A stretch of DNA of 36,847 nucleotides. Source: Kiritimatiellia bacterium. GTDB lineage: Bacteria > Verrucomicrobiota > Kiritimatiellia > RFP12 > JAAYLN01. The stretch is from positions 1-36,847 of the forward strand of contig JAQULY010000002.1 in NCBI GenBank assembly GCA_028718445.1, read 5' to 3'. This document shows positions 28,176-29,731 of this stretch, piece after piece. Position 1 is the first letter of the stretch; each line of letters begins with the position of its first letter. The notes under the pieces were generated by a model. The model saw only the letters and a program-made list of their open reading frames with translations. It was not told the origin of the DNA and did no database searches. Both the position numbers and the translations under genes were made by a program.

Positions 28176-28253
28176 GGCGAACGCTGAGCGTGACCCTCGG
28201 TTCAGCCGGCGTCCTCGCCGGGTGAACCGTAGTGGTCCACGCTCTTGTTCTGC
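28176..28253 (-). other. attC site E (R'' GCAGAAC / R' GTTCGCC)
   Basis: GAGCGTGGACCACTACGGTTCACCCGGC / GCCGGCTGAACCGAGGGTCACGCTC hairpin. Confidence 0.9.
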
Positions 28254-28259
28254 CGTGCT

Positions 28260-28553
28260 TCAGTCCGTCCAGTCGCCCCATTCCCTATGATCGTCATATT
28301 CCGTATGTGTCGTATTGTCCGTGTGGTGAGGACTTTCGCTGTACTCGTGGTGCTCTTCGTATGGTACATCCGTGTGATCGCTATGCTCATCCCAGCCGTG
28401 CGGCGATAACGCCCTGATTCGCGGACAGCGCGCGAGAGCACGCCGAACATGCCGGTTCCCGATCCGGCTGAAGTCAACGGTAACACCCAAGCCGGGTAGT
28501 TTCGCAAGGCCTACAAGACGGTCACACTCGGCTCGTGTCTGTCTAGGTCTCAT
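28260..28553 (-). CDS. Candidate RiPP precursor peptide rich in aromatic-X-Asp/Glu tripeptides
   Basis: 97 aa; ATG overlaps the end of the rSAM gene by 11 bp; C-terminal HGWDEHSDHTDVPYEEHHEYSESPHHTDNTTHTEYDDHREWGDWTD. Confidence 0.7.
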   Translation of the reverse strand: MRPRQTRAECDRLVGLAKLPGLGVTVDFSRIGNRHVRRALARCPRIRALSPHGWDEHSDHTDVPYEEHHEYSESPHHTDNTTHTEYDDHREWGDWTD

Positions 28554-29652
28554 TCCCTACCTCCGCGTTTCTTAGTTCCTTTTGCAGTACTGCCCGTACG
28601 TGAGTGAATAACCGATGATACATGGGGCAGTACGGATCCTTGCCCAAGGCATCACCAGCCGTCCATGCGTTGTGCAGACACCCGCCTTTGCATTGGTCGC
28701 TGACCACGCAATCGCTGCATTCGAGGATGTTCTTCGCGTTGCGTCCCAGGAGGCGCTGGTGAACCGAAGAGCCGTAGGCGTCAGTGACGCCATTCGGCGT
28801 GTTTACGTTGCCCATCCACATAGACTTCACGCCGTCGAATCTCCCACAGGGATAGATATCCCCCAATGGTCCTACCGATACGTACCGCTCCCTGCAATTC
28901 CCCGCGTGGTTGCATCCGACTGAACATCCACTGGCCACGCTCCCAATGAAGTCGACAAACGGATCAACCGACACCATCGAGTCGCTCTGCATCCAGTAGT
29001 TGAAAAGGTCGTGAAGCGCTGCGGCAGCCTCGGTAGGATCGATGTCGTATTCGCCATGTCTTGCACGTCCACTTCGAATCAACGGATTTACCTTGAAACC
29101 GATACGTTCCTCATTGAAGAACTGCAGCACTTGCTTCATATCAGCGATGTTAGCTTTGGACAGTACGACGATAACGCCACCGCCAAGATGTCGCGTCCTG
29201 CTATTCCGCTCGCGCGTCATCCTGATTGCGCGCAGCGTGTCATTGAATGAGCTCGCCCCAGTCGCGTACGGTCGAGTGCGATCATTGATACGTTGAGGAC
29301 CGTCAAGGCTGAAGCCAAGCCGGAAATCGTCAACGTCGCTCACAAAATCGAGGAAGTCCGGGCCGAGGAGGGTGCCGTTCGTCTGAATCGCGTTGGTCAC
29401 GTGATAGCCGCGCTTCTTCAGGCTGGCGGTTATGTCGGCGACGAATTCAAAGAACGCGATGCCGCAAAGGAGCGGTTCGCCCCCATGCCAAATAAAGTGG
29501 GCACGGTGGTCATGCGAGTGGCGAGCGAAGCCTTCCATGACGTTGAGTGCAGTGCGTTCATCCATACGCCCCCGCTCGGCGCCGGGCTCAATGTAGCAGT
29601 AGCCGCAGCGTAGATTGCAGTCGTGAGTCGGTTTGGCTATGACAGTGATCAT
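28543..29652 (-). CDS. Radical SAM/SPASM peptide maturase
   Basis: KPTHDCNLRCGYCYIEPG (CxxxCxxC), FIWHGGEPLLCG, QTNGTLL; SPASM-type C-terminus GCNHAGNCRERYVSVGPLGDIYPCGRF...CSDCVVSDQCKGGC. Confidence 0.93.
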   Translation of the reverse strand: MITVIAKPTHDCNLRCGYCYIEPGAERGRMDERTALNVMEGFARHSHDHRAHFIWHGGEPLLCGIAFFEFVADITASLKKRGYHVTNAIQTNGTLLGPDFLDFVSDVDDFRLGFSLDGPQRINDRTRPYATGASSFNDTLRAIRMTRERNSRTRHLGGGVIVVLSKANIADMKQVLQFFNEERIGFKVNPLIRSGRARHGEYDIDPTEAAAALHDLFNYWMQSDSMVSVDPFVDFIGSVASGCSVGCNHAGNCRERYVSVGPLGDIYPCGRFDGVKSMWMGNVNTPNGVTDAYGSSVHQRLLGRNAKNILECSDCVVSDQCKGGCLHNAWTAGDALGKDPYCPMYHRLFTHVRAVLQKELRNAEVGNET

Positions 29653-29668
29653 TGTGTCTCATTCGTGG

Positions 29669-29731
29669 GCAGAACGTTCACGGCGCACCAACGGCTCGAT
29701 CAGCGCCGTTCGGTGTCGCCGCTGGTTAGGA
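29669..29731 (-). other. attC site F (R'' TCCTAAC / R' GTTCTGC)
   Basis: GCGGCGACACCGAACGGC / GCCGTTGGTGCGCCGT hairpin. Confidence 0.88.

Follow-up and report, generated by a model that had tools for sequence, protein, structure and literature searches.

A putative radical SAM/SPASM maturase and its candidate multi-motif precursor peptide carried together in one integron cassette of a Kiritimatiellia bacterium

Can a single integron cassette carry both a peptide-modifying enzyme and the peptide that it modifies? Integrons are known mostly for resistance genes, toxin-antitoxin genes, and genes of unknown function. The question is raised by two overlapping genes on the minus strand of a 36,847-nt stretch of a Kiritimatiellia genome (GCA_028718445.1, contig JAQULY010000002.1), hereafter called the window. 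The first (28543–29652, minus strand) encodes a protein of 369 amino acids, assigned as a radical SAM/SPASM maturase on the basis of Pfam Radical_SAM, NCBIfam models, and its AlphaFold fold. The second (28260–28553, minus strand) encodes 97 amino acids and is interpreted as a precursor peptide with a leader and a multi-motif core, since it adjoins the enzyme gene in eight relatives and matches a leader model. The two genes overlap by 11 bp, and a GGAGGT Shine-Dalgarno sequence (28559–28564, minus strand), read directly from the DNA, is located inside the end of the enzyme gene, 5 nt upstream of the precursor ATG. GGAGG was also present 5′ of the precursor start in the relatives L002, L037, L042, L004, and L039. 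The preliminary description, made from sequence alone, did not mention this element; it had given the ORF positions, the 11-bp overlap, a CxxxCxxC motif in the enzyme, twelve aromatic-x-acidic units in the small ORF, and a flanking R′/R″ pair, and these held in every checked detail. Its proposal of a radical SAM/SPASM enzyme paired with a multi-ring precursor is largely supported by the results below, but the cross-linking itself and its C-C type remain unproved.

The enzyme matched Pfam Radical_SAM with an E-value of 6e−18. Its CxxxCxxC motif consists of C12, C16, and C19; the Pfam SPASM match was sub-threshold (18.4 versus 21.5 bits), but all eight auxiliary cysteines (positions 247, 253, 269, 312, 315, 321, 325, and 342) were nevertheless present, and these eight and the three cluster cysteines were invariant across nine family members. 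There was no separate N-terminal recognition domain. The AlphaFold model (pLDDT 84.7, pTM 0.85) most closely resembled the anaerobic sulfatase maturase anSME (4k37, TM 0.85), followed by the multiple-cyclophane synthase ChlB (9gmc/9gm3; TM 0.83, 22% identity), which was the best match among RiPP maturases, whereas the epimerase EpeE matched far more poorly (TM 0.48). Among NCBIfam models, the best was DynA (NF041298), at 247 bits against a cut-off of 450; the relatives scanned scored 280–324 bits, all likewise below the cut-off. Every curated cyclophane-maturase family scored lower still, and none of their cut-offs was reached (YhhB 123/445, AmcB 96/425, FxsB 105/370, GrrM 93/310, and XyeB 69/450 bits). 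The pair meets two of the criteria for a triceptide system, in that a radical SAM/SPASM maturase accompanies a core with aromatic-X-X motifs. A defence library search gave only weak viperin-like matches, and a viperin-like defence role was rejected, as these matches stem from the common radical SAM fold.

A single pass over 85,462 species genomes gave three close relatives of the enzyme (46, 44, and 36% identity), from an archaeon, a Verrucomicrobia MAG, and a Woesearchaeota archaeon, and 330 genomes of an archaeal phylum yielded six more (285–438 bits). In eight of these nine closest relatives, an intact small ORF adjoined the enzyme gene, with the same leader motif and an aromatic-x-acidic core (acidic or basic in one case). 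The eight pairs belong to seven archaeal MAGs and one Verrucomicrobia MAG, with enzyme identities of 30–46%, and the two genes lie −11 to +13 bp apart. L002 and L039 have two small ORFs in tandem, and in L004 the peptide gene lies upstream of the enzyme gene instead of downstream. The preliminary description had also stated that homologues lacking the repeat peptide, or a disrupted reading frame, would refute it; this test was run, and the reading survived. In the ninth relative, L040, the neighbour of the enzyme gene instead encodes a larger, different protein, which has an N-P-x-[IL] motif of loose similarity. This 173-aa protein (L058:9089–9610, minus strand) has a leader-like V-x-NP-I-L-K motif, and a CYLTTTCTSARGLSDNC stretch stands in place of an aromatic-x-acidic core.

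The small ORFs of the family have in common a leader with the approximate consensus G-x-x-[VI]-x(5)-[IVL]-x-N-P-x-[ILV]-R-R. In the window ORF, the conserved segment is LPGLGVTVDFSRIGNRHVRRALAR (residues 19–42; 28428–28499, minus strand), and in its alignment with 10 relatives, Asn33 was invariant in all 11 sequences. When the leader model was built without the window ORF, this ORF still ranked first among the 467 ORFs of the window (E = 3.1e−5), and it did so again when L003 was also left out (E = 6e−5); in these leave-one-out models the next-best ORF had an E-value above 1. A conserved leader, a variable core, and a precursor gene adjoining the modifying enzyme are what is expected of a RiPP pair. 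A search of solved structures with the precursor profile gave no match.

The core region (residues 52–97; 28263–28400, minus strand) contains exactly the twelve [WHY]-x-[DE] units that the preliminary description had put at about that number. In other words, 12 of its 15 Trp, His, and Tyr residues have Asp or Glu at +2, against 28% expected, and this score was reached by none of 20,000 composition-keeping shuffles. The other raised offsets, −1 and +5, are those that two motifs in register would give, and no DNA tandem repeat was found in the core-coding region. Of the 117 Trp, His, and Tyr residues in the precursors of ten relatives, 73 were followed by an acidic residue at +2 (0.24 expected, z = 11); no other offset came near this, the next being again the in-register +5 (z = 5.7). 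His-x-Asp/Glu was the commonest form (42 of the 85 motifs with an acidic third residue), and in the precursor of the Verrucomicrobia relative the third residue was Lys or Arg more often than acidic. The relatives' cores are 33–79 residues long and vary in length and order, but the [HYW]-x-[DE] spacing is kept. Each core has 0–3 cysteines (the single one of the window core lies at the leader junction), so thioether chemistry cannot explain the motifs. A ranthipeptide or sactipeptide assignment was accordingly rejected, as several core cysteines acting as thioether donors are lacking and the PapB model scored 122 bits against a cut-off of 340.

Hairpins between AAC and GTT were scanned on the minus strand to locate attC sites. 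The attC of the preceding cassette (29669–29731, minus strand; folding z = −3.6) supplies the R′ GTTCTGC (29669–29675) that opens the enzyme cassette, and the attC that closes it (28176–28253, minus strand; −28.5 kcal/mol, z = −7.1, equalled in 0 of 200 shuffles) contains its R″ GCAGAAC (28247–28253), the exact reverse complement, and the R′ of the next cassette, GTTCGCC (28176–28182, minus strand). The whole cassette, with enzyme and precursor, thus spans about 1.5 kb (28182–29674, minus strand). The same exact complementarity between opening R′ and closing R″ was found in five consecutive cassettes (GTTAGGA/TCCTAAC, GTTCTGC/GCAGAAC, GTTCGCC/GGCGAAC, GTTCGGC/GCCGAAC, and GTTCGAA/TTCGAAC), and ten attC-type sites lie in the 23–36.8 kb part of the window, against two in its first 23 kb. 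The contig also holds about 24 kb of ordinary genes, indicating that the array is not a stray cassette fragment. An integron integrase was found in the same genome (425 bits, cut-off 265), on a different contig (G000:C595) from the array, where an ankyrin-repeat gene and an attC-like site adjoin it. Completeness of the source MAG is 87% and its contamination 5.6%. These results show that enzyme and precursor lie together in one integron cassette, as had been proposed; linkage of integrase and array is not shown. No attC-type site was found in about 140 kb of loci around the relatives' pairs, so the cassette state has been seen only in the window. The integrase ORF (L022) is longer than usual, at 502 amino acids, and has a second, N-terminal match that is integrase-like but partial. 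The rest of the array (window:24822–36789) encodes a calcineurin-like phosphoesterase, a HAD hydrolase, a signal peptidase S26, an ankyrin-repeat protein, and several orphan proteins.

In the phylogenetic tree, the nine precursor-bearing enzymes, the window enzyme included, were separated together from the sulfatase maturases of the same phylum (support 100/98). L040 and a DynA fragment were unresolved near or among them, DynA being a long branch of unsure placement, and a strict clade of precursor-bearing enzymes was not rejected (p-AU = 0.32). Within an otherwise archaeal set, the window enzyme grouped with the Verrucomicrobia enzyme and one archaeal enzyme (98/96). The tree therefore favours transfer between domains, but its direction is not shown and all sequences derive from MAGs; integrons have been described in archaea, as has cassette exchange between domains (PMC9668308). 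The window host and the Verrucomicrobia relative belong to the same phylum, since identical contigs (G262:C188 and G884:C188) came up in both phylum searches. Beyond these two, the searches, of 291 and 340 genomes, gave nothing closer than enzymes at the sulfatase-maturase level. Viral contigs and plasmid and phage records contained only distant radical SAM enzymes, with at best about 29% identity. No orphan precursors were found in the 330 archaeal genomes, where precursor matches fell only in known enzyme-bearing genomes, on which the model had been trained. We infer that this looks like an undescribed family of peptide natural products occurring in both domains, in Verrucomicrobiota and DPANN archaea; subscription papers and metagenome collections were outside the search.

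The gene pair, its conservation, the common leader, the core grammar, the cassette boundaries, and the enzyme's cluster cysteines and predicted fold are shown, and we consider it likely (probability approximately 0.72) that the pair constitutes a self-contained, two-gene, cyclophane-type RiPP module on one integron cassette. Cross-linking and bond type are inferred in this reading, as are leader recognition, the site of the bonds, the number of rings, and the role of the product. The enzyme would be translated first, with re-initiation at the overlapping precursor gene, and would recognise the precursor through the [IVL]-x-N-P-x-[ILV]-R-R region of the conserved leader. A 5′-deoxyadenosyl radical would then take a hydrogen from the beta carbon of Asp or Glu at i+2, which would bond to the aromatic or imidazole ring of Trp, His, or Tyr at i. 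Iteration along the core could yield up to about twelve three-residue rings, each with a mass change of −2 Da. No transporter, protease, or hydroxylase was conserved beside the pair, and eight archaeal loci had no conserved neighbours, which makes this a minimal pair and suggests that leader removal and export would fall to host proteins. At one archaeal locus (L057:9755–10426, plus strand), a 223-aa protein encoded after the precursors resembles C39-type peptidases by eye (GHRCGSTCIRIAHEHFGL); it has no Pfam match and is not conserved in other loci. By inference, the product is probably a bioactive peptide, secreted or cytoplasmic, or a metal-binding one. Bonds of the i/i+2 geometry have been demonstrated experimentally for Tyr-x-Asp by YxdB, Trp-x-Asp by OscB, and His-x-Ala by HaaB, and YhhB forms Tyr/His-Arg cyclophanes, so Arg is an accepted third residue (PMC11002830). 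A His-x-Asp/Glu cyclophane shown by experiment was not found in the open-access literature searched. Against the cyclophane reading stand the facts that no modification has been observed and that the enzyme falls below every curated cyclophane-maturase cut-off; moreover, DynA, the curated family to which it comes closest, forms a four-residue Trp ring and links His-N to C-beta, and the core pattern could also serve metal binding. A bolder version would hold that one promiscuous enzyme forms up to a dozen adjacent rings from His, Tyr, and Trp to Asp/Glu, His-x-Asp/Glu included, in a RiPP family spanning both domains, on a minimal mobile cassette that needs only export and proteolysis from its host; here the balance tips slightly against.

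The alternative closest to our reading is dynobactin-type chemistry, in which each His ring nitrogen is joined to the C-beta of Asp or Glu (C-N) and C-C bonds arise only at Trp and Tyr, giving mixed rings. This remains possible: DynA is the best curated model for the window enzyme and its relatives, and in the tree a DynA fragment falls close to them, so the His sites may carry C-N links. Furthermore, dynobactin itself contains a bond from His-N to the C-beta of Tyr that spans one residue (PMC11002830), and HxD and HxE are the commonest core motifs. On the other hand, all members score far under the DynA cut-off, the placement of the long DynA branch is unsure, and the dynobactin core is not repeated. 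A modification without cross-links (epimerisation, hydroxylation, or other C-H functionalisation), with the acidic/His pattern serving metal binding, is unlikely. The cores are rich in His, Asp, and Glu and no exporter or protease is conserved, as this explanation would have it, but the fact that three different ring residues keep the i to i+2 spacing points to a ring-to-C-beta bond, and the best RiPP-maturase fold match is a cyclophane synthase rather than EpeE.

A third alternative, an anaerobic sulfatase maturase lying beside an unrelated small ORF, is very unlikely. In favour of this idea, anSME is the best match among solved structures and scores 109 bits; however, the TIGR03942 score (169 bits) does not meet its cut-off (349), and the residue after auxiliary-cluster Cys269 is Gly or Ser throughout the family (PCG or PCS; PCG in the window enzyme), where anSME has Asp (PCD). 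In addition, the tree places bona fide sulfatase maturases from the same phylum in a clade of their own, and enzyme and small ORF are conserved as a pair. That the small ORF arose by chance and its motif pattern is a coincidence of composition might be suspected from its location at the cassette end, overlapping the enzyme gene, but this is all but excluded: the relatives refute it through conserved position and grammar, as do the leave-one-out leader match and the Shine-Dalgarno sequence.

The proposed cyclophane module resembles the triceptide systems (XncB, OscB/GrrM, YxdB, HaaB, and YhhB) in combining a radical SAM/SPASM enzyme with a small precursor in which Trp, Tyr, or His at i is followed by a functional residue at i+2 (PMC11002830). 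It differs from them in that the enzyme is under every curated cut-off, the leader motif is its own, no neighbours are conserved, and the cores mix His, Tyr, and Trp in up to a dozen motifs, mostly HxD/HxE. ChlB, which forms multiple cyclophanes on its precursor and was solved with the precursor's leader (known to us from a title cited in PMC12636437), has a similar fold at only 22% identity, and the alpha-KG HExxH hydroxylase of the Chl system is absent here. The clusters highlighted in a large mapping study of radical SAM RiPPs lack the [WHY]-x-[DE] motif (PMC9062424). As for the cassette, its attC with matched R′/R″, array order, and integrase in the genome are those of known integron cassettes, from which it differs by combining an enzyme with the peptide that is its putative substrate. 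The preliminary description knew of no cassette with a complete precursor and maturase, and none with a complete RiPP pair was found in the open-access literature searched, although priority is unproved. A complete enzyme-substrate pathway in 1.5 kb would mean that natural-product chemistry could be shuffled between lineages as single units, and about twelve closely spaced candidate ring sites with three kinds of ring residue would test the limits of iteration and tolerance of one radical SAM enzyme. Many DPANN archaea are thought to live on other cells; for them, the family would add a class of candidate modified peptides.

The dynobactin maturase family (NF041298) is the nearest curated one, and there too His and Trp take part in the bonds. 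The two rings of dynobactin sit in a single short core, in contrast to the repeated core described here, and the present enzymes, unlike that family, were found in archaea and Verrucomicrobiota. An apparently frameshifted dynobactin maturase gene was observed in Xenorhabdus kozodoii (L012:3986–5199), with the DynA model scoring 388 bits over its second piece. Two other small ORFs with similar motifs were also observed. In an archaeal MAG, a 63-aa ORF ending in a Trp-x-Asp run (SEWSDGWDDWSDGGWNDQWANWDDGV; L051:2871–3062, minus strand) lies beside an HxsB/PapB-like radical SAM enzyme. In a Ruminococcus MAG, a 56-aa ORF rich in HxD, YxD, and YxE units (SSHDDYDCHTDYGEHCDDDYGDIYVD; L005:3758–3928, plus strand) precedes a distant relative of the enzyme (29%); it is without the common leader and may represent a parallel system.
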